From a virus, in the IMG/VR virus record IMGVR_UViG_3300035670_000761, positions 1 through 34,578 of that record: 34,578 nt of DNA; one strand, given 5' to 3'. Shown in pieces: positions 9,174-30,368 of the stretch; position 1 is the first letter of the stretch, and every line of letters begins with the position of its first letter. Both the position numbers and the translations under genes were made by a program. The notes beneath the pieces were generated by a model. It did no database searches. It was not told the origin of the DNA and worked only from the letters and a program-made list of their open reading frames with translations.

Positions 9174-10139
9174 TTAAGCGTTAGTGTATTGTACTACGTG
9201 GTCAATGAATTTCACTGCACATCCTGCACGAAATGCACCAAAGACGCGCCAAACCCTGTCGTCCTTGGAATACCATGCTTCGATATTTTCTAAGTCTGAT
9301 TGTAAGTCAGTACCGAATACTAAGTTTGAAGCGTAAGTTGCGATAATACGATTTCTTACTGCTGTAGGTACAGAACCTGTATCAACTGCTGCATCACTTA
9401 ATCCTGGTACGCCAACAACCTTCATGTTAGTACCTGGGTACATTAATTCCCAATTGTTCCATACGTTATCAGTTGTGTACTGTGAACCGTATATTCCATA
9501 AGTTGAAGTAATCTTTGCAGCTAATGTTCTGAAAGTATCGTAACCACAGAAAGCAACGATAGGCTCATTAGCGATTGCAGCAGATGGTACTTTTGCATAA
9601 ATGTCATCAAATATAGTTAATACGTTAGTTGCATTCAAAGTTGAAGGTGTTGCAGCAACTGCTGTTCCTGCTACATCAATTGTTTTAAGCCAACCATTCA
9701 TTTGTTTTAATACTGTTGAATTGGTGTAAGCCACGTTTCCAGCCCAAATCATATTTTCAACATTACGTGCTACTTGAGCAATTTTTCTGTCGATAATGTT
9801 TTGTGCAATTGATAATGAATCATTGTTTGCTCCTGCTGGTAAATACTTTTGAGTGTAGTAAGTATTTAAATCTTTTAAACAGAATTGTTCTGCGAAGTTA
9901 ATACCTACAGTTGCGATTGATACTTGAGAGAAAGTTGTAGTTCCCGAAGTTGTGAATGAACACGCTTCTGCTTGGAATGGTACTGTACTTTCTAATACAG
10001 GGATTTTTTCTGTAGACTTAATACCTGTACGGATGTCTACTCCTTTTCCTAAGGTTACACCACCTAATATCGCTTTGGTGATGAGGTCAGCTCTGTTTTC
10101 TTCAACATAAGCTGTCATTGAATCAAATGAAAATGCCAT
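9174..10139 (-). CDS. Major capsid protein
   Basis: 321 aa, usual length for HK97-fold capsid proteins without a large delta domain. Features are an N-terminal helical part (SFDSMTAYVEENRADLITKA), the segment EKIPVLESTVPFQAEACSF, DRKIAQVARNVENMIWAGNV in the spine-helix region, and a C-terminal strand set with MYPGTNMKVVGVPGLSDAAV and VFGTDLQSDLENIEAWYSKD ending in RVFGAFRAGCAVKFIDHVV. The position behind protease and scaffold-like genes, and the terminator after it, fit an abundant shell protein. The family is inferred from context and pattern. It begins 22 bases after the previous gene. Confidence 0.85.
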   Translation of the reverse strand: MAFSFDSMTAYVEENRADLITKAILGGVTLGKGVDIRTGIKSTEKIPVLESTVPFQAEACSFTTSGTTTFSQVSIATVGINFAEQFCLKDLNTYYTQKYLPAGANNDSLSIAQNIIDRKIAQVARNVENMIWAGNVAYTNSTVLKQMNGWLKTIDVAGTAVAATPSTLNATNVLTIFDDIYAKVPSAAIANEPIVAFCGYDTFRTLAAKITSTYGIYGSQYTTDNVWNNWELMYPGTNMKVVGVPGLSDAAVDTGSVPTAVRNRIIATYASNLVFGTDLQSDLENIEAWYSKDDRVWRVFGAFRAGCAVKFIDHVVQYTNA

Positions 10140-10794: not shown

Positions 10795-11853
10795 TCATTT
10801 AGTTGCAATCTCAGCCACTTTTTTTCTTAAGTTGTGTATTCTATCCGCTAAACTTTCAATAACGTTTACAGGGGCATCTTTTAGCTTTCTATGGGCAAAA
10901 GCACCCTCAACACTAAAACCTTTAAACACACCTGTACGAATAAAATCATTCCATACTTCGTTATTGTCTACTTTAAAAGTTCCAAACCAACTACCCTCTG
11001 TTAATGTTGGATAGCCTTCAGGTGTTTTAATACCGCGTGTTTTGTCAATAATAAAACTTTCGACCATGTAAACCCCATCAACTTGTCTTTCGCTATCGTG
11101 CATCATGTTTACGTTATGAGTATAGCCTTTTTTAAAAAATCTTTGTGCTATCTTTTCAATTTGTGTTTTATCAAATATTACATAATATTCCCCACTTTCA
11201 TCGCTTCTATAAATAGGTAAATCAGCAAGCATTAACGCCCCACTAATTAAACGTCTTTCTTTATTTGCATAAAATTTAAATTGAGCATTCATGTTTTTAT
11301 TATCCCATTTAGAGTAGCAAATTGCAGCCGCTTGGTCTTGGTCTTTTCCTGATTCAACTTCAACTGCTATACATCGAGAAACAAATTCATCTTTGGTTTC
11401 ACCTGCTCTTGGATTAACAACCATTTTTTCTCTATCAATTTGTTCTAACTTACGCTGCGCCCATTCAATTCCTTCGTCACCGCCCCATGCTAACCACATT
11501 AAACGACCACATCCATCGCCTAACTCTTTTTGTGAGTTTTGTCTATGTCTTTCAAATGCTGCCATTCTCGCAATCGTATCTCTGCTTATAGCTTCGCCAT
11601 TTGCTAATTGATTTGCTCTAATTTTACCTACGGGAGTTCCACAATCGCCCCATCCGTTTTCCTCTGCCCATCTTAAAGCTATTTTTGCGTTTTCACTTGC
11701 TTGTTTTGGATAGTCTGTATAGCTTTCAAATTGATGGTCTTTAAATGCGTGCCAATTAGTTTCTATTGCTGGTTGGTCAACTAATGCCACAAACTCAACG
11801 CCTAACTCATCGCTATCATCAATTACTAATTTATAAACTGGTAAATTTTCCAT
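10795..11853 (-). CDS. Prohead protease (XkdF type) with inserted domains
   Basis: 352 aa. The N-terminus (PVYKLVIDDSDELGVEFVAL, VDQPAIETNW) and the part from about residue 190 (FKFYANKERRLISGALMLAD, LPIYRSDESGEYYVIFDKTQ, YTHNVNMMHD, VDGVYMVESFIIDKTRG) match the XkdF family of phage serine proteases, with His in MMHD and Ser in VESF as likely catalytic residues. Between them sit two extra modules: one at about 50-135 (GWGDCGTPVGKIRANQLANG, TIARMAAFERHR) and one at about 145-185 (PRAGETKDEFVSRCIAVEVE, DQAAAICYSKW), both also seen in other phage head proteins. The enzyme should cut scaffold and capsid precursors during head maturation. It lies directly before the scaffold-like and capsid genes, as expected. 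Confidence 0.8.
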   Translation of the reverse strand: MENLPVYKLVIDDSDELGVEFVALVDQPAIETNWHAFKDHQFESYTDYPKQASENAKIALRWAEENGWGDCGTPVGKIRANQLANGEAISRDTIARMAAFERHRQNSQKELGDGCGRLMWLAWGGDEGIEWAQRKLEQIDREKMVVNPRAGETKDEFVSRCIAVEVESGKDQDQAAAICYSKWDNKNMNAQFKFYANKERRLISGALMLADLPIYRSDESGEYYVIFDKTQIEKIAQRFFKKGYTHNVNMMHDSERQVDGVYMVESFIIDKTRGIKTPEGYPTLTEGSWFGTFKVDNNEVWNDFIRTGVFKGFSVEGAFAHRKLKDAPVNVIESLADRIHNLRKKVAEIATK

Positions 11854-11854
11854 G

Positions 11855-13735
11855 TTATCCTATTTTTGAATTGTTACTTAATTTATTTACTCTTTCTGTT
11901 ACTGCTCTACTTTCACTTTCTACTACATACGCTTTCATTGGTGCGGCTTCTCTATTACCTTGACCTGCTACAGTTCCGTCAGGGTTTAATTGAGTTACTG
12001 TATTTTGACTTGTTAATCCTTGAGGAGGTTGACCGCCACCGCCACCTTGACTGAATGTACCTAAGCTGCCGCCACCACTTGGAGCTGTTGCCTTTTCAGT
12101 TCCTCCAAATTTTGTCTTTGCTATCTTAGCCACATTAACAGCTGCAAATGCTGCGGCTAAACCTGCTTGTATTGCAGGATAAGCTGGAAATACCGCTGTT
12201 ATTGGAGATGCTTGAGCTGTTTTATAAGCATTAATCGTTCCTTCTATCCCACTAATTGTTGCACTACTTAATTTAACAGCTTTGTCAATTTCAAAAGCTC
12301 TTTTTTGTTGAGCTTCGCTTTGCCCTGCAAATAATGTGTTTAGTTCACTTATTAATGTTAAACCTTGTTTTGCCCATTCAACTTTTTGAAGTTCTAATTG
12401 TTTAAAGCCTTCTAATCTTAAAGCATATTCAGCATCTATCTTAGCATCTTCGTCCGCTCTTCGTTTATCTTCTATTGCTTTTAAACGTTTTAATTCAGCA
12501 TCAACTGCATTGTTATATTCTTGTTGCTTTTGTAAATTATAAGCATTCCAAGCTTCTATTTCTTGAGGGGTTGCTGTATTTAAAGCTATCTTAGTTGCAA
12601 GTTGTTGCTCTGCTATAATTTGCTCCGTTTCATCAAATTTATTATTTAGCGCATCTATTTCATATTGTATAAATTTAGCTTGTTCCTGTCTCCATTTTTC
12701 AGCATTTGCAATATCATCATCTATTTTCTTTTTTGCGTTTTCTTTTGCTTTTGCATCTGCTGCTTTTTGTCTTTCATCTTCTTTTTTAGAGTTTTCAGTA
12801 TTTAATTTAGTTCTATTGATTGTATAATCTGAATCTATTTTGTATAATTCATTATAAAGAGCTTTCCTTGCATCAACATCCTTTTGGTTTTTGTCAAGTA
12901 TTTCTTTACGTTCGTCTTCGTCTGCGTTTTTAATTAATGCAGTTCTTTCTCTAATATTTTTACTTAATAATGCAATTTCATCGTTTATTCTTTTTTTCCT
13001 TGCATCCCCTAACTCTTTTTCTAATGCTAATTGTTGTTCGGCTGTTTTTCCTTGCGCTGCCGCTAAATTCTTTCTAAAATCCGCTTCTCTTTGTAATGCT
13101 GTATTCTGGTCTCGCATTACTTCTATTTCTCTTTCACGACCTGCAATTACATTCTTTTGAGCTTCGTCCTCATCTTTCATTGCATTTACAACCAATGCAA
13201 TTACTCCAACTAATGCCGTTAATCCTGCTACAATTAATCCTATTGGATTTGCAGCCATTACAGCGTTATAAATTCTTTGAGCCGCTGCCGCTGCCTGAGT
13301 TCCTAATGTTGTTGATTTTAAAAGATTTCCTACAGCTTTTAATCCATCGCCCATTCCAGCAAGTCCTTGAATGCCTTGCGTTAAAGCCATTGTAGCTTGT
13401 AGCTTAACCATCGTTTCATTTAGAGCTTCATTATCAGCTCCAAATAAAGCAGCTGCCCCTTGTGCCGCTTGGAATCCGTTTGCTATTCCACCAATAACAT
13501 TTGATACGGATGCAATCTTTTTGTCCGCACCTGCAAAGGCATTTATTTCATCTTTTAAATCCCCTATTTCATCTTTTACAGCTCCTAATCGCTTTAAAGC
13601 ATCAATATACTTTTCAGTACCGGGTGTTAAACCTGATAACTCTTTTTGTATATCTTTAAATTCGCCACGTAAATCTGATAGGGATTTTACTGAACCACCT
13701 GTATTTACATCTATTTGTATTGTAGTCTTTGCCAT
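11855..13735 (-). CDS. Tape measure protein
   Basis: 626 aa. The N-terminal 60 residues form a helix-rich start (SVKSLSDLRGEFKDIQKELS). A hydrophobic region lies at about 135-190 (ANPIGLIVAGLTALVGVIAL), a long Lys/Glu/Ala-rich coiled coil covers about 195-470, and the Gly-rich C-terminus (GGTEKATAPSGGGSLGTFSQ) is flexible. This is the usual layout of phage tape measure proteins, which set tail length; by the common ratio of about 0.15 nm per residue the tail would be near 90-95 nm. The late motif lies at 13744-13751. The gene ends one base before the protease gene begins, an unusual tail-to-head order. Confidence 0.8.
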   Translation of the reverse strand: MAKTTIQIDVNTGGSVKSLSDLRGEFKDIQKELSGLTPGTEKYIDALKRLGAVKDEIGDLKDEINAFAGADKKIASVSNVIGGIANGFQAAQGAAALFGADNEALNETMVKLQATMALTQGIQGLAGMGDGLKAVGNLLKSTTLGTQAAAAAQRIYNAVMAANPIGLIVAGLTALVGVIALVVNAMKDEDEAQKNVIAGREREIEVMRDQNTALQREADFRKNLAAAQGKTAEQQLALEKELGDARKKRINDEIALLSKNIRERTALIKNADEDERKEILDKNQKDVDARKALYNELYKIDSDYTINRTKLNTENSKKEDERQKAADAKAKENAKKKIDDDIANAEKWRQEQAKFIQYEIDALNNKFDETEQIIAEQQLATKIALNTATPQEIEAWNAYNLQKQQEYNNAVDAELKRLKAIEDKRRADEDAKIDAEYALRLEGFKQLELQKVEWAKQGLTLISELNTLFAGQSEAQQKRAFEIDKAVKLSSATISGIEGTINAYKTAQASPITAVFPAYPAIQAGLAAAFAAVNVAKIAKTKFGGTEKATAPSGGGSLGTFSQGGGGGQPPQGLTSQNTVTQLNPDGTVAGQGNREAAPMKAYVVESESRAVTERVNKLSNNSKIG

Positions 13736-24477: not shown

Positions 24478-25133
24478 TCTGCAAAGTTATAATAAATTTT
24501 TTCGCTTTGTAATTCCTTTAAAAAAACTTTTCGATTTTCTTCAATTAATTTATTCTTTTTATAAATTGGAATACTCGATTTGTGTTCAATATTCATATAA
24601 TCTTTTGAAAAAAAATATTTATCAGTTCCTGTTAATTGTTGGTAAGGGGATGAGGTTAAACCAGCTTTGTAAATTCTGTTTGAGTAACCTGCATGTTCAA
24701 ATCCATACTGCCCATACTCAGGATTGAAATAACCGACTTTATTTAATACTTCTTTTGTTAAGTATATTAACACCCCACCACAATCATGATAGCTCTCTAA
24801 ATTGTTTATTTTGCTTTTTATTCTATGGTATGGTTGCAAGTAAAGTAAATGATTGTAATTTGATTCAATAAAAAACTTTGCCCAGTCAGGTTTAACAGGA
24901 TAGCAGTCGTCATCAAATAAGAAAATATAATCACAATCCTGTAATGTTTTTAGATTTTGATTTTTTGAATAGGCAACACCTTTGTAATGTTCATCGGTGT
25001 GAATGTGTAAGTGATAGTTTTTAGGTTTAAACTTTTCAAAATATTCAAGCCATCTATCAATGTACTCATATCTGTTTGGAGTGGTTGTTACGCCAATACC
25101 GATTCGAGGATTTGTTTCCTTACTTCCGTCCAT
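24474..25133 (-). CDS. Glycosyltransferase (GT2/GT-A type)
   Basis: 219 aa. The N-terminus IGIGVTTTPNRYEYIDRWLE, then NLKTLQDCDYIFLFDDDCYP with the DDD nucleotide-sugar/metal site, and a later acceptor region (YGQYGFEHAGYSNRIYKAGL), follow the GT-A plan. The start at 25133 lies 46 bases inside the GT4 gene; there is no later Met before the conserved N-terminal strand, so this start is likely. It is translated together with the following gene (overlap 4 bases). Confidence 0.7.
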   Translation of the reverse strand: MDGSKETNPRIGIGVTTTPNRYEYIDRWLEYFEKFKPKNYHLHIHTDEHYKGVAYSKNQNLKTLQDCDYIFLFDDDCYPVKPDWAKFFIESNYNHLLYLQPYHRIKSKINNLESYHDCGGVLIYLTKEVLNKVGYFNPEYGQYGFEHAGYSNRIYKAGLTSSPYQQLTGTDKYFFSKDYMNIEHKSSIPIYKKNKLIEENRKVFLKELQSEKIYYNFAE

Positions 25134-26128
25134 TTGTTTATATTATAATGTTTTTCAATATATTTTTGTAAACTTTCTGCATATTCTTTCCTCATTGATT
25201 CATTTCGGGTTAATTCCCTTATTGCCTTAAACCAGCCATTTATATCATTGTTTTTTAAGAATATTGCTGTTTCTTTGGGAAATGTGTTATAAGGTAAAAC
25301 ATCGCTTACTATTGCAGGGTTGCCATGTAAACCAGCTTCGAGTAATTTAATTTCACTTTTACATTCAGTAAATGAATTTGATTGAAGAGGAATTAAACTT
25401 ACATCTGTTTCGTTATATGCCTTACCATAATCATGTACGGGCAAACTGTAAACTCTTTGATATTTATCTGTTATCTTACCGCCACTCATTACTTTTTCGT
25501 AGTAGTGATAATCTGCATTATCATTATAACCTCCTAAAACAAATTGAGCGTTTATATCATGCCTTAATACTTTACGAATAGGTAGTTCCAAAATTGAAAT
25601 ATCGCCTTTGTGGAATATCCCTGCAATATAACCAAACCTTATTTTGTCGCTTTTGCTTTTGTTTGCTTTCCATTGCTCATCTTCATGGTCTAAGCAGTTT
25701 GGAATAACCTCAACATTTTTATTATATCTTTTAATCTTTAATGCCAGGTGTTTAGTAGTCGTTATTACTAAGTCAACATTTTTAAGAATTTCAACTGTTT
25801 GGTCTGGTATATTGTGTATGTCGTAAAGTCTACTTAAATAATGGCTTTTAGGTAATGTCCAGATGTCATCAATATCGAATATTACTTTTATTCCTAATGA
25901 GTGAAACTTTTTAATTATTTCTAATGATTTGCCACCTGTATCGATTTCTCTTTGATAAACTACTGCGGAATATTGTTTTAACTGCTCATCGGTTGCAACT
26001 TCTAAGTCAGGGAAAACATCGCATTGGAAGTTTAACATGTCGGATATTTTTGCAAAAGGAACTATTAATCGGTGAAAGGATAAACCATTAAGGTTCCCCA
26101 TGTTCGCTTTGATTAGAATTTTTTTCAT
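25088..26128 (-). CDS. Glycosyltransferase family 4 protein
   Basis: 346 aa, a GT-B-fold enzyme. The N-terminal domain includes KVIFDIDDIWTLPKSHYLSR and NVDLVITTTKHLALKIKRYN, VEVIPNCLDHED marks the domain border, and the C-terminal domain has IRFGYIAGIFHKGDISILEL, NETDVSLIPLQSN and the nucleotide-sugar signature ECKSEIKLLEAGLHGNPAIV with the family E-x7-E-like acids, followed by SDVLPYN. It would add a sugar from an activated donor to a growing glycan. It is the first of the cassette and starts 41 bases inside the sigma-like gene. Confidence 0.85.
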   Translation of the reverse strand: MKKILIKANMGNLNGLSFHRLIVPFAKISDMLNFQCDVFPDLEVATDEQLKQYSAVVYQREIDTGGKSLEIIKKFHSLGIKVIFDIDDIWTLPKSHYLSRLYDIHNIPDQTVEILKNVDLVITTTKHLALKIKRYNKNVEVIPNCLDHEDEQWKANKSKSDKIRFGYIAGIFHKGDISILELPIRKVLRHDINAQFVLGGYNDNADYHYYEKVMSGGKITDKYQRVYSLPVHDYGKAYNETDVSLIPLQSNSFTECKSEIKLLEAGLHGNPAIVSDVLPYNTFPKETAIFLKNNDINGWFKAIRELTRNESMRKEYAESLQKYIEKHYNINKWTEVRKQILESVLA

Positions 26129-26666: not shown

Positions 26667-28424
26667 TTAAAAAGGCTCATGATTTGGTTTATCATTTAAG
26701 AAATAATCGTTTTGTTCTAATTTAATTTCACTTTGTTTAACTGCCACTTTATCAAATGGATTTATATTATCTAAATAATATCTATTCTTTTTAAAGTCAT
26801 AAATAAAATCTTTTTCACCTGTAACTCCTGTTAATCTTTGTTTTTTAATTTTATCAATTAAGACTTTTACAGTTGGATTTGATTTATCAGTATTTCTAAA
26901 TGGTCTCCAAACACAAATAACATTATCCGCTTTGTCTGCAAAAGTTCCGCCACCTTTTATCCTATAAGCGTTTGGTTGTGGATAATCCTGACCAGCTATA
27001 TAAACAGGTGTAACTTGATGAGCTACTAAATGAATGCTAATATCATTTAAAAGAGCAAATCTTTTTAAAGTTGCCATGAATTTACTAATATATAAATCTT
27101 CTCTTTGAGTACCCTGATTGTGGTCAAATTGATTATAAGGGTCAAGTATTACCGAACGAATTCCTTTTTTCCTTATTAAATAGTTTAATTTTTCCTCAAC
27201 TGAATTCCAAGTAAAATCTTTTTCAGGATAAATATAGAAAAAATGTTTTTTAATAAAATCAATACCTTCTTCATATTCAGTTCTACTCATGTAATTGCCA
27301 TGTGTTTTATCAGTACTTTTACCTATAATCATGTGAATTATATCGTCAAAAAATTCATCAGCCGGGAATTCCTCTGGACTAAAAACTGCTATTTTCCATT
27401 TATCAAAATATGCCTTTGCTAACAATAATTGTTTAACAAATGTACTTTTACCCTCATTCATGTAACCAGTCCATAAAGTTACTTCGCCAGTTCTATGAGT
27501 AAAATTCCTATCAAATTCACCAAAATAACTTGAAGTTCCTTTTGTTTTTCCATTGATAAAAGTATTTAACATTGTTTCTTTTACATCCTCAACTGTAAAT
27601 ATCCCATCTGCTTTTACTTCTAATGCGTTTAATTTGGCATTTAAAAGACTTTCTTTACCAAATTGAAGCAACATATCATTAGCGTCTTTACAATCGCTTA
27701 AAAAGGAAATTATGAAACATTTTTCAAATCCAAACCGTCTTATCAATTCATTTTCTAATCTTTTTCCATTTGCATCTTTGTCAACTGCTATAAATATTTT
27801 TTCTGCCTGTTCAAAAACTTCATAGCAATTTGTGATACATTCTAATTTTTTATCAATGTTTTTGTCATTCTCGTTTGGCGCACCCTGATTAACCGAAGTT
27901 ACATTTGTGAAACCAGCTACTTCAAATGCCATACAATCAAATTCACCTTCGCAAATGATTATTTCTTTTTCATTTTTTACTCTATCGTAATTGTAAATAA
28001 TTGATTCAGCTCCAGTCGATTGCCTAAAATCTTTTGTTTTAATTGAACGCTTTTTAACATTTACCAATTGTCCGTTTCTCAAATAAGGAAAAATAATCCA
28101 TTCACCTTCTTGAACTATTTTGTTTGAATTAACAACTTCTTGAGTTATACCACGATTAGTAAAAACTTGTAATGCTTCAATTGAAATTTTAGTAAAGTTT
28201 GTTTTAATTGGTTTTTGATATTCTTTTTTGTCGCCTTTTTTAACACATCCGTTCCAACCGCATTTGTGGCAATTAAAAAGCCCATCGTTAAGGTTAATTG
28301 ATAGGCAAGTATCTTTTATGTTTGTTTTGCCTAACTTAACACAATTAGGGCAAATTACTTTTTGCTGAACAAAACTTCCTTTTGGCTGAATTCCTATTTC
28401 ATAGAATAAATTATTATTTAACAT
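26667..28424 (-). CDS. Primase-helicase (T7 gp4 type)
   Basis: 585 aa. A zinc ribbon lies at the N-terminus with C25, C28, C52 and C55 (ICPNC and NCHKC). A TOPRIM primase domain follows with IICEGEFDCMAFEV near 157-170 and IFIAVDKDANGKRLENELIR near 211-230. The C-terminal half is a RecA-fold DnaB-type helicase with Walker A GYMNEGKST near 319-327, Walker B SVILDPYNQ near 424-432 and the sensor-like HLVAHQ. The enzyme would unwind DNA and make primers at the phage fork. No phage DNA polymerase is present in the window, so host polymerase is probably used. It overlaps the DUF4373-like gene by 11 bases. Confidence 0.9.
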   Translation of the reverse strand: MLNNNLFYEIGIQPKGSFVQQKVICPNCVKLGKTNIKDTCLSINLNDGLFNCHKCGWNGCVKKGDKKEYQKPIKTNFTKISIEALQVFTNRGITQEVVNSNKIVQEGEWIIFPYLRNGQLVNVKKRSIKTKDFRQSTGAESIIYNYDRVKNEKEIIICEGEFDCMAFEVAGFTNVTSVNQGAPNENDKNIDKKLECITNCYEVFEQAEKIFIAVDKDANGKRLENELIRRFGFEKCFIISFLSDCKDANDMLLQFGKESLLNAKLNALEVKADGIFTVEDVKETMLNTFINGKTKGTSSYFGEFDRNFTHRTGEVTLWTGYMNEGKSTFVKQLLLAKAYFDKWKIAVFSPEEFPADEFFDDIIHMIIGKSTDKTHGNYMSRTEYEEGIDFIKKHFFYIYPEKDFTWNSVEEKLNYLIRKKGIRSVILDPYNQFDHNQGTQREDLYISKFMATLKRFALLNDISIHLVAHQVTPVYIAGQDYPQPNAYRIKGGGTFADKADNVICVWRPFRNTDKSNPTVKVLIDKIKKQRLTGVTGEKDFIYDFKKNRYYLDNINPFDKVAVKQSEIKLEQNDYFLNDKPNHEPF

Positions 28425-29016
28425 ATTCTATCCTCCTATTCTCACAATGTTGTTGTATTCCAAATTCAGATAAACCTCCACACATTCTGTCTTTTAAATT
28501 GCCATAAATTCTGCTTCCATCTTCATCCAAAGTAAATTCAATTTGCCATTTAGGTTCAAAAAAAACATCAATTCCATTTTCTTCTTTTAAAAATTTTAAA
28601 TTTTTTAATTCATATTCTTTTATTTTCTTTTCTTTTCTTATAGCTATATCTTTTTTTATGGCATCCTCATTAGCTACCCCATTAGGGTGGCTATTTTTTC
28701 CCCATCTAATCGCAGCTCCAATCTTTCCACTATTTGATAATTCTTTATGTTTTTTATAGCGTTCTTGCCATTGGCTATCTAAAAAAGAAATTTTAGCATA
28801 TCCATTTTTATCTTTTATAAAATTTTCGGCTATTAAATAATTTATAGCGTCGCCATATCTTTTTTGTAAGGTAGCTATTTTAATTGAACATTCATTTGCC
28901 CAATAAATAGAGCATACATTTATAAATATTCCTTGTGTTTCATAACTTTCTAATGTTATTTTTTTTCCTAACCATTGCTCAGGAAAAAATTTAAAGTAAG
29001 GTAATTCTTTAGCCAT
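28414..29016 (-). CDS. DUF4373-like replication (helicase-loader/initiator) protein
   Basis: 200 aa. The N-terminal 90 residues (YFKFFPEQWLGKKITLESYE, GIFINVCSIYWANECSIKIA, LIAENFIKDKNGYAKISFLD) match the Lin1244/DUF4373-type domain found in phage replication proteins. A basic linker follows (KHKELSNSGKIGAAIRWGKN, then KKDIAIRKEKKIKEY). The C-terminal part is unlike other families. These proteins are related to DnaD-type initiators; next to the primase-helicase it probably loads the helicase at the origin. No clear iteron origin was seen by eye. Confidence 0.7.
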   Translation of the reverse strand: MAKELPYFKFFPEQWLGKKITLESYETQGIFINVCSIYWANECSIKIATLQKRYGDAINYLIAENFIKDKNGYAKISFLDSQWQERYKKHKELSNSGKIGAAIRWGKNSHPNGVANEDAIKKDIAIRKEKKIKEYELKNLKFLKEENGIDVFFEPKWQIEFTLDEDGSRIYGNLKDRMCGGLSEFGIQQHCENRRIEYVK

Positions 29017-29305
29017 TTTTAAAAGATTTAAATATTTGTGAAATAAATTCTAATTGCAGATTTTGCTCATTAATTATTTTAGTAATTATAGAATTATAAT
29101 CACAATTAAAAATTTTAGATAAATCTTTACCAATTGAATAAAGTATATTATTACTAATCCAATTTTTCTCATTTAAATGCCTAAAACCTCTGCAAGAATT
29201 GTTTTTAATTTTAAACATTTCTAATGGCAAATAATATTCGCCTAACCATTGTTGATTGTAAAAATCAATTGTTTTGTCTTTTAAGTTTATTTTGTAAGTT
29301 ACCAT
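29009..29305 (-). CDS. Hypothetical protein, 98 aa, behind a structured leader
   Basis: A further ATG exists at 29320, but it lies inside the terminator-like hairpin (29316-29323), so the ATG at 29305 is chosen. The product has a beta-strand start (MVTYKINLKDKTIDFYNQQW), the segment LPLEMFKIKNNSCRGFRHLN and a helical C-terminus. No family recognised. It overlaps the DUF4373-like gene by 8 bases and heads the transcript that contains the replication genes. Its leader could attenuate transcription of the whole set. Confidence 0.65.
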   Translation of the reverse strand: MVTYKINLKDKTIDFYNQQWLGEYYLPLEMFKIKNNSCRGFRHLNEKNWISNNILYSIGKDLSKIFNCDYNSIITKIINEQNLQLEFISQIFKSFKNG

Positions 29306-29309
29306 AAAT

Positions 29310-29356
29310 AAAAAACCCATCGGCTTTCGAGGTCGTGGTCTCTACTCACCAATGGG
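29310..29356 (-). terminator. Terminator-like hairpin of the leader
   Basis: CCCATTGG (29356-29349) and CCGATGGG (29323-29316) pair over 8 bp across a 25-base loop, and six T residues follow directly. It ends five bases before the chosen start codon at 29305. The loop carries the A' segment, so formation depends on whether A' is paired elsewhere. Confidence 0.5.
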
Positions 29357-29391
29357 ATTATATTAATATTATTAATGATGCCACGACACAT
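29310..29391 (-). ncRNA. Structured leader RNA with competing hairpins
   Basis: In transcription order the leader has A (GTCGTGG, 29387-29381), B (CCCATTGG, 29356-29349), A' (CCACGAC, 29338-29332), B' (CCGATGGG, 29323-29316) and six T residues (29315-29310). A pairs perfectly with A' over 7 bp; B pairs with B' over 8 bp with one G-U. The A-B-A'-B' order means the two stems interlock: they exclude each other as simple hairpins, or form a pseudoknot. B-B' plus the T run is a terminator. Between A and B lies an A/T hairpin (ATTAAT AAT ATTAAT). The layout suits an attenuator, a riboswitch or a small RNA that ends at 29310. The regulated signal is unknown. Confidence 0.55.
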
Positions 29392-29397
29392 CGGGTA

Positions 29398-29428
29398 CAA
29401 ATATACTAAATTAATTTTAATTGTGCAA
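29398..29428 (-). promoter_or_regulatory. Bacteroidetes-type promoter of the replication leader
   Basis: On the minus strand TTG (29428-29426), 20 bases, then TATATTTG (29405-29398), a full match to TAnnTTTG. Transcription would begin near 29391, just before the A segment of the structured leader. It lies in the gap behind the stop of the 29434-29622 gene. Confidence 0.65.
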
Positions 29429-29433
29429 CATGA

Positions 29434-29622
29434 TTATTTTAAAAATATTTGATTTATTTCATCCATTGAATATATGTTACCGTTTAATTTGAATTTTAAT
29501 TGATACGTTGGGACTAATTTTTTTAAATGATAATTTTTATGGTTTCTTTTAAAAGGTAGCCTCCAAATATCTTCTCCTTCTATTTTGTAAGTAATATCGC
29601 CTACTTTAAATGTTTTTTCCAT
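29434..29622 (-). CDS. Hypothetical small basic protein, 62 aa
   Basis: An upstream in-frame ATG exists at 29667, but the ATG at 29622 gives a short 17-base overlap with the preceding gene and begins a regular protein (MEKTFKVGDITYKIEGEDIW). Beta strands and many Lys/His residues are visible (FKRNHKNYHLKKLVPTYQLK). Its end, KLNGNIYSMDEINQIFLK, resembles short nucleic-acid-associated phage proteins, but no family is recognised. Confidence 0.55.
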   Translation of the reverse strand: MEKTFKVGDITYKIEGEDIWRLPFKRNHKNYHLKKLVPTYQLKFKLNGNIYSMDEINQIFLK

Positions 29623-29839: not shown

Positions 29840-30368
29840 GTTCTTTGATTTTTGATTTGTAAATTTTAATTAGTTCCTGTATTTCAATTAAAGTTAATTT
29901 TAATGGTTTGTCTTTTTCTTCAATAAGTTTGTTAAACCTTTCTTGACCTATTCTCGCTGGTAATCTTAAAGTATATTCAGCTATGTTTCCATGTAAATGT
30001 AAATTACATTCGATGCAGCTCAGATGCGTATTATCTTCATTAAATCTTAAGTTTGGATAATTACCAACTGAAAATAAATGCGAAGCATGACCGTTAATTA
30101 CTTTTTTACCGCATGATATACAATTTTGTTTTTCATCTCTTAGTCTAATCCATTTATTGTAAATAACTTGCAGCATATTTAACCATTCAGTTCGTGTCCT
30201 TGACTTACAAATAAGTTCAGCTTTCTTTTTCTTCCAAACTTTTTTCTCTGCTAATAATGATGCACATTTAGGACTGCAAACTTGTTGAAGTGAATTAAAT
30301 GGAGTGTAGGTATTCCCACACTCCTTGCATTTTTTATCTTTAATTTTTTTTACCATTAAATGATTCAA
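29829..30368 (-). CDS. ninG: NinG/Rap-like recombination endonuclease
   Basis: 179 aa. The N-terminus has a zinc-binding motif (CKECGNTYTPFNSLQQVCSP followed by KC). The central part has the NinG signature: CISCGKKVINGHASHLFSVG, NYPNLRFNEDNTHLSCIECN and LHLHGN. The His and Cys residues form an HNH-like metal site. In lambda, NinG (Rap) is a structure-specific nuclease that cuts recombination intermediates in Red-type recombination; here it lies next to a YqaJ exonuclease and an ERF protein. Two starts are possible (30368 and 30356). It overlaps the exonuclease gene by 29 bases. Confidence 0.85.
   Translation of the reverse strand: MNHLMVKKIKDKKCKECGNTYTPFNSLQQVCSPKCASLLAEKKVWKKKKAELICKSRTRTEWLNMLQVIYNKWIRLRDEKQNCISCGKKVINGHASHLFSVGNYPNLRFNEDNTHLSCIECNLHLHGNIAEYTLRLPARIGQERFNKLIEEKDKPLKLTLIEIQELIKIYKSKIKEHGK

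Follow-up and report, generated by a model that had tools for sequence, protein, structure and literature searches.

Replication-initiator genes preceded directly by a terminator hairpin, with RNA–RNA pairing in the leader, are known from pT181 and pIP501 (PMC5703833), and homing endonucleases of the T4 type (I-TevI, segB and mobE) are restrained by RNA hairpins (PMC2988022). These plasmid rep attenuators and T4 hairpins are the nearest functional parallels to the phage leader RNA presented here, although its anatomy is not described in either source. As in pT181 and pIP501, the terminator of the phage leader adjoins a replication gene and the leader contains RNA–RNA pairing; unlike in those systems, the partner loop lies in cis on the same strand, and the carrier is a phage rather than a plasmid. 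Hairpins of the T4 type sequester a ribosome-binding site, and a late promoter bypasses them; the leader presented here instead has its promoter ahead of the RNA and a hairpin that ends in a U tract.

Parts of the leader also recall other RNAs. The kissing complex of ColE1 RNA I and RNA II contains a 7-bp loop–loop helix but is intermolecular, antisense-encoded and without terminator function; the leader has a loop–loop helix of the same length, formed in cis. The put RNAs of HK022 are promoter-proximal two-hairpin phage RNAs whose hairpins are not known to be intrinsic terminators or to have kissing loops. The leader is likewise promoter-proximal and made of two hairpins but has both a terminator and kissing loops.

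Anatomy of the leader RNA

The leader lies in the whole 34,578-nt stretch of IMGVR_UViG_3300035670_000761, hereafter the window, and is read on the minus strand (Table 1). A preliminary description had listed a promoter, segments in the order A-B-A′-B′, a terminator and a nearby start codon, all of which we find in place on that strand. It had also taken the two stems to be mutually exclusive, and this did not hold. Segments A and A′ are exact complements, each within a hairpin loop, A in a 4-bp hairpin of its own that the earlier reading had missed. Since this pairing joins one loop to the other, both hairpins and the A–A′ helix can coexist as a kissing pseudoknot; no competing helix was enriched.

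The promoter in the window fits the −33/−7 form of Bacteroidota, and transcription is expected to start at about 29396-29392. At the other end of the leader, the likely start codon of the first gene (ATG 29305-29303) lies 4 nt past U6 and 10 nt from the end of the terminator hairpin, with no space for a further promoter between terminator and ATG. A second in-frame ATG (29320-29318) lies within the 3′ arm of the terminator, 15 nt ahead of the likely start; translation from it would make the U tract encode GFLF.

Plain folding gives hairpin 2 at once, with a z-score of −2.2 when the kissing helix is left out, and even without that helix the leader fold beats 195 of 200 shuffles. The element is the sole kissing-terminator that a general finder reports in the window; ten Markov-shuffled versions of the window together yielded 4. 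The internal part of hairpin 2 consists of a U·G pair and a bulged-G (sarcin–ricin-like) internal loop, GAGUA/GAAA. When the region 29250-29480 was searched, the terminator hairpin weakly resembled Staphylococcus aureus TEG147 (RF03535) and SprC (RF02890), at scores far below the Rfam cut-offs (19.9 against 56.1 bits and 23.1 against 100, respectively). Both share a GAGUA/GAAA-type internal loop with the hairpin, and TEG147 also ends in a U run; the likeness is possibly that of a convergent or distant module.

Table 1. Features of the leader and its downstream genes in the window, and leaders of cultured phages
Sequence	Feature	Position	Strand	Remarks
Window	Bacteroidota-type promoter	29398..29428	−	−33 TTG 29428-29426; 20 nt; −7 TATATTTG 29405-29398
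Window	Leader RNA	29396-29310	−	hairpin 1, AU linker, terminator hairpin, U6
Window	Hairpin 1	29377..29392	−	4-bp stem GAUG/CAUC, 29392-29389 with 29380-29377; loop U + GUCGUGG
Window	Kissing segment A	29381..29387	−	GUCGUGG
Window	Linker	29357..29376	−	20 nt, AU-rich, single-stranded
Window	Terminator hairpin 2	29316..29356	−	outer 8-bp stem CCCAUUGG/CCGAUGGG; inner 3-bp stem GAG/CUC; loop A + CCACGAC
Window	Segment B	29356-29349	−	CCCAUUGG; 5′ arm of terminator outer stem
Window	Kissing segment A′	29332..29338	−	CCACGAC; in terminator hairpin loop
Window	Segment B′	29323-29316	−	CCGAUGGG; 3′ arm of terminator outer stem
Window	U6 tract	29310..29315	−	completes the intrinsic-terminator signal
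Window	First gene	29009..29305	−	98 aa from ATG 29305; 103 aa from ATG 29320; no known domain
Window	Second gene, replisome-organizer/primosomal-like	28414..29016	−	PHROG 3992 and 29280
Window	Third gene, TOPRIM primase/DnaB-like helicase	26667..28424	−	
Window	Glycosyltransferase gene	25088-26128	−	downstream of the replication genes
Olleya phage Harreka_1	Leader	30091-30176		ahead of two small genes, then a gene annotated replication protein
Flavobacterium phage elemoF_6-3D	Leader	9211-9298		ahead of a small gene and a replication protein
Flavobacterium phage mumin6-1	Leader one	11675-11764		ends at the base before the annotated endonuclease
Flavobacterium phage mumin6-1	Other leader	12710-12813		ahead of a small gene and a helicase
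Flavobacterium phages filifjonk and morran	Leader			before genes leading to primase
Cellulophaga phage Nekkels_1	Leader architecture			before replication genes

A covarying family absent from Rfam

The same design recurs in more than 100 phage sequences. The exact 24-mer GAGTAGAGACCACGACCTCGAAAG is present in 12 viral contigs and the loop-free pattern GTGAGTAGAG...CTCGAAAG in 72, with the upstream and terminator loops changing together; further scans, in which the inner stem was left free or the bases near the internal loop were relaxed, yielded many more members. For a kissing test we picked 128 terminator hairpins by the hairpin alone, disregarding the upstream segment. A perfect upstream complement of at least 6 nt accompanies 121 of these (exactly 7 nt in 107), as against 9.4% when loops and leaders were exchanged between members and 2.5% in shuffled upstream sequence. 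Across the family, the kissing loops take 37 different sequences.

Both pairings proposed in the preliminary description are kept by compensatory change in alignments of homologous leaders, A2 with 36 sequences and A5 with 30, the latter leaving out the window and its closest relatives. In both alignments, all seven A–A′ pairs show two-sided changes in relatives and 98.8–99% of the cells of these pairs are paired. Pairing of the hairpin 1 stem is 100% throughout the alignments and includes two-sided changes, and the outer and inner stems of hairpin 2 both covary. In A5, 98.5% of cells are paired overall, with two-sided changes in 4/4 stem-1 and 7/8 outer-stem pairs; sliding the register lowers pairing to 32–39%, and none of 500 shuffles reached the observed covariation values, nor did any in A2. 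A held-out covariance model (R3), from which the window and its closest relatives had been withheld, detects the window with a score of 88.9 bits (E = 1.5e-17).

No family in Rfam 15 matches the window at its gathering cut-off, and a relaxed threshold gives nothing credible; blastn of the leader against phage and plasmid collections returned AT-rich chance matches only. The open-access papers searched contain no description of such an element, in agreement with the preliminary description, which knew of no described phage element of this form. By the pairing and covariation of its sequences, the leader is a strongly supported structured RNA family that is absent from Rfam, and we file it as a new family within a known kind, the cis-acting leader controlling expression of the next gene.

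Several features recur across the family. A T run of at least 6 ends the terminator in 119 of 128 members, and loop 1 mostly lies 18–26 nt from the terminator stem. The motif TAnnTTTG occurs upstream of 84 kissing-positive members, compared with 4 in shuffled upstream sequence, and mostly ends 9–10 nt ahead of loop 1. Downstream, a co-directional open reading frame (ORF) begins 4–22 nt past the stem in most of 118 cases, and the stem is often only 5–17 nt from the ATG; in some members this distance is 40–49 nt, giving a family range of 4–49 nt.

The constancy of the bulged-G loop is partly by construction, because the searches demanded AGUA/GAA. Other internal loops replace it in second copies and in cultured phages, with hairpin 1, the kissing helix, the terminator and the position retained: UGAC/UGAC stands before the endonuclease gene in mumin6-1, and GGA/AAA-like loops occur in the leaders that filifjonk, morran and mumin have ahead of replication genes. 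Since the internal loop is replaceable and the other parts are kept, the constant core is the kissing hairpin pair ahead of a U tract. At loci L042 (1057-1144), L315 (1501-1590), L267, L277 and L278, too, a different loop, such as the tandem G·A-like module UGAC/UGAC, takes the place of the bulged-G loop in a leader of the same design.

The kissing loops vary among copies as well. One genome (G043) carries four leader copies whose scaffolds are nearly identical but whose loop pairs all differ; G050 has two copies and G059 three. The multi-copy loci that share a scaffold and differ in kissing sequence are L261–L264 (G043), L265–L267 (G059), L272–L273 (G050) and L276–L278 (G005). Between genomes, pairs at 90–95% scaffold identity differ on average at 24% of their loop positions; no two cleanly identified copies within a genome had the same loops, yet this orthogonality is not significant when set against the between-genome pairs. 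The one apparent exception, in L042, seems to be a single element that was reported twice, and some of the within-genome pairs listed for L042, L056 and L191 appear to be chance detections.

Carrier phages and downstream genes

Cultured phages of Olleya, Flavobacterium and Cellulophaga have the leader or its architecture, often with another internal loop (Table 1). In phi10:1 and phi19:1, only inspection by eye revealed the kissing pair GTACGAC/GTCGTAC, which the finder did not report, and phi19:1 gave only a weak covariance-model match. A second small hairpin, approximately xGGUAAUCUUAAAACCx with matched changes in its flanking pair, was seen between leader and start codon, before the small gene that opens the replication module, in several Flavobacterium, Cellulophaga, Olleya and uncultured phages (L004, L034, L207, L208, L209 and L313); it was not seen behind the leader of the window.

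Cellular genomes are nearly free of the leader. The strict pattern has 0 matches in GTDB contigs, and a model scan of 395 Bacteroidia genomes gave one real-looking, prophage-like copy (G445), which is followed by a small gene and one of DUF4373-like appearance, the domain label being our own reading. Twenty-two matches of a looser pattern in cellular genomes were judged on inspection to be chance.

In most cases the next ORF encodes a homing endonuclease or a protein of replication initiation. The 76 representative proteins encoded downstream comprise 24 homing endonucleases of the NUMOD4/HNH type and 6 of the GIY-YIG type, 9 DUF6291 proteins, 7 that match a replisome-organizer PHROG and 6 that match a DnaD-like helicase-loader PHROG; the remainder include other HNH, KilA-N or Bro-N proteins and short unknown proteins. 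Nearly the same promoter–leader unit can accompany GIY-YIG and HNH endonucleases, which look like unrelated families. In the window, the gene previously called DUF4373-like is the second of the operon; it has primosomal PHROG matches but no Pfam match at E ≤ 0.001, and its N-terminal region is 39–44% identical to genes directly behind the element in two other loci (L022 and L148).

Probable control of the downstream genes

We hold with moderate confidence that the leader most likely limits expression of replication or homing-endonuclease genes by premature termination. The sequences themselves show the promoter, the covarying helices, the U tract and the tight coupling to the downstream start codon; termination in cells, an effect of kissing on termination and a factor or condition that relieves it are what we infer. 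From the host-type promoter, transcription would begin at the foot of hairpin 1, whose loop would kiss the loop of the later-made terminator hairpin to give a compact RNA with the U tract directly behind it. Most transcripts would probably end at this tract as RNAs of ~85 nt, and read-through transcripts alone would carry the replication operon or, elsewhere, the homing-endonuclease gene; expression of genes harmful in excess would be kept low or delayed. The kissing helix may make the terminator fold faster or more strongly, may hold the RNA rigid for recognition by a protein or by RNA polymerase, or may shield the short RNA. Because the promoter precedes the leader, the terminator ends it and no space is left for a second promoter, expression from this promoter would need read-through.

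The preliminary description had proposed an attenuator, a riboswitch or a pseudoknot sensor, and its design survives in part, as a kissing pseudoknot with a terminator before a replication operon. A classical attenuator is not supported: the terminator signal is present, but an antiterminator helix is no commoner than in shuffled leaders, with a 6-nt complement to the 5′ arm of the terminator in 60 of 124 leaders (62.2 when shuffled) and to the 3′ arm in 66 of 124 (72.4 when shuffled). No antiterminator helix is conserved, and termination could be constitutive. Control by a small-molecule riboswitch is unlikely, since every conserved unpaired base recognised in A2 and A5 lies in the bulged-G internal loop; no other conserved core for ligand binding was recognised, and that loop is itself replaced in other members.

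Control might instead be translational, the hairpin complex by the AUG blocking 30S binding and the U tract serving as an unstructured spacer. The short spacing of stem and ATG, often just 5–17 nt, fits such a block, as does the frequency of homing endonucleases among the targets, those of the T4 type being held back by RNA hairpins (PMC2988022). Yet almost all members have the U tract while their distance to the ATG differs widely, and the RNA starts at hairpin 1 with, unlike in the T4 cases, no alternative promoter that bypasses the hairpin; we regard this explanation as fairly unlikely. Quite unlikely, in our view, is feedback in trans resembling the copy-number control of pT181 and pIP501, whereby terminated leaders would pair through their loops with new leaders, the short RNAs would build up with genome copies and tune the initiator, and loop sequences would act like incompatibility groups. 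It would suit the position of the terminator right ahead of a replication-initiation gene, which pT181 shares (PMC5703833), loops that change faster than the scaffold, the different loop pairs of copies in one phage (four in G043) and the matched double changes by which co-isolated Flavobacterium phages differ. Pairing within one molecule should nevertheless outcompete pairing in trans, a pT181-type pre-emptor or antiterminator segment was looked for in the leaders and not found, and the lack of an identical within-genome pair is only weakly unexpected (an estimated chance of ~0.1 at equal scaffold identity).

The unit of promoter, RNA and terminator is complete and ~85 nt long, as would befit a stand-alone small RNA gene whose neighbours merely reflect genome compactness. 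That account is improbable, given that every next ORF examined runs in the same direction and begins only a few nucleotides on, that the class of downstream gene recurs and that no conserved unpaired stretch is left for target recognition. An antiterminator of the HK022 put kind, in which the folded RNA would bind RNA polymerase and make it ignore later terminators, would share the promoter-proximal position, the two hairpins and the place ahead of replication genes; that the element itself ends in a terminator signal makes it highly improbable.

Beyond premature termination, the kissing loops could form a code for self-recognition by each leader RNA, whether in cis or in trans, with copies and host-sharing phages diverging against cross-reaction. 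We think this unlikely; the analogy with plasmid copy-number control, in which related plasmids form separate incompatibility groups, is a conjecture rather than a finding. If true, the loop code would be an RNA sensor of copy number or co-infection, reused to hold back homing endonucleases.

The many natural kissing-loop pairs on one scaffold offer a resource for RNA biochemistry and design, and the presence of the leader in cultured phages makes it testable at once. The family is found in many phages with Bacteroidota-type promoters, ahead of genes that start replication or spread selfish endonucleases, and it suggests a common means by which such phages restrain their replication and endonuclease genes.
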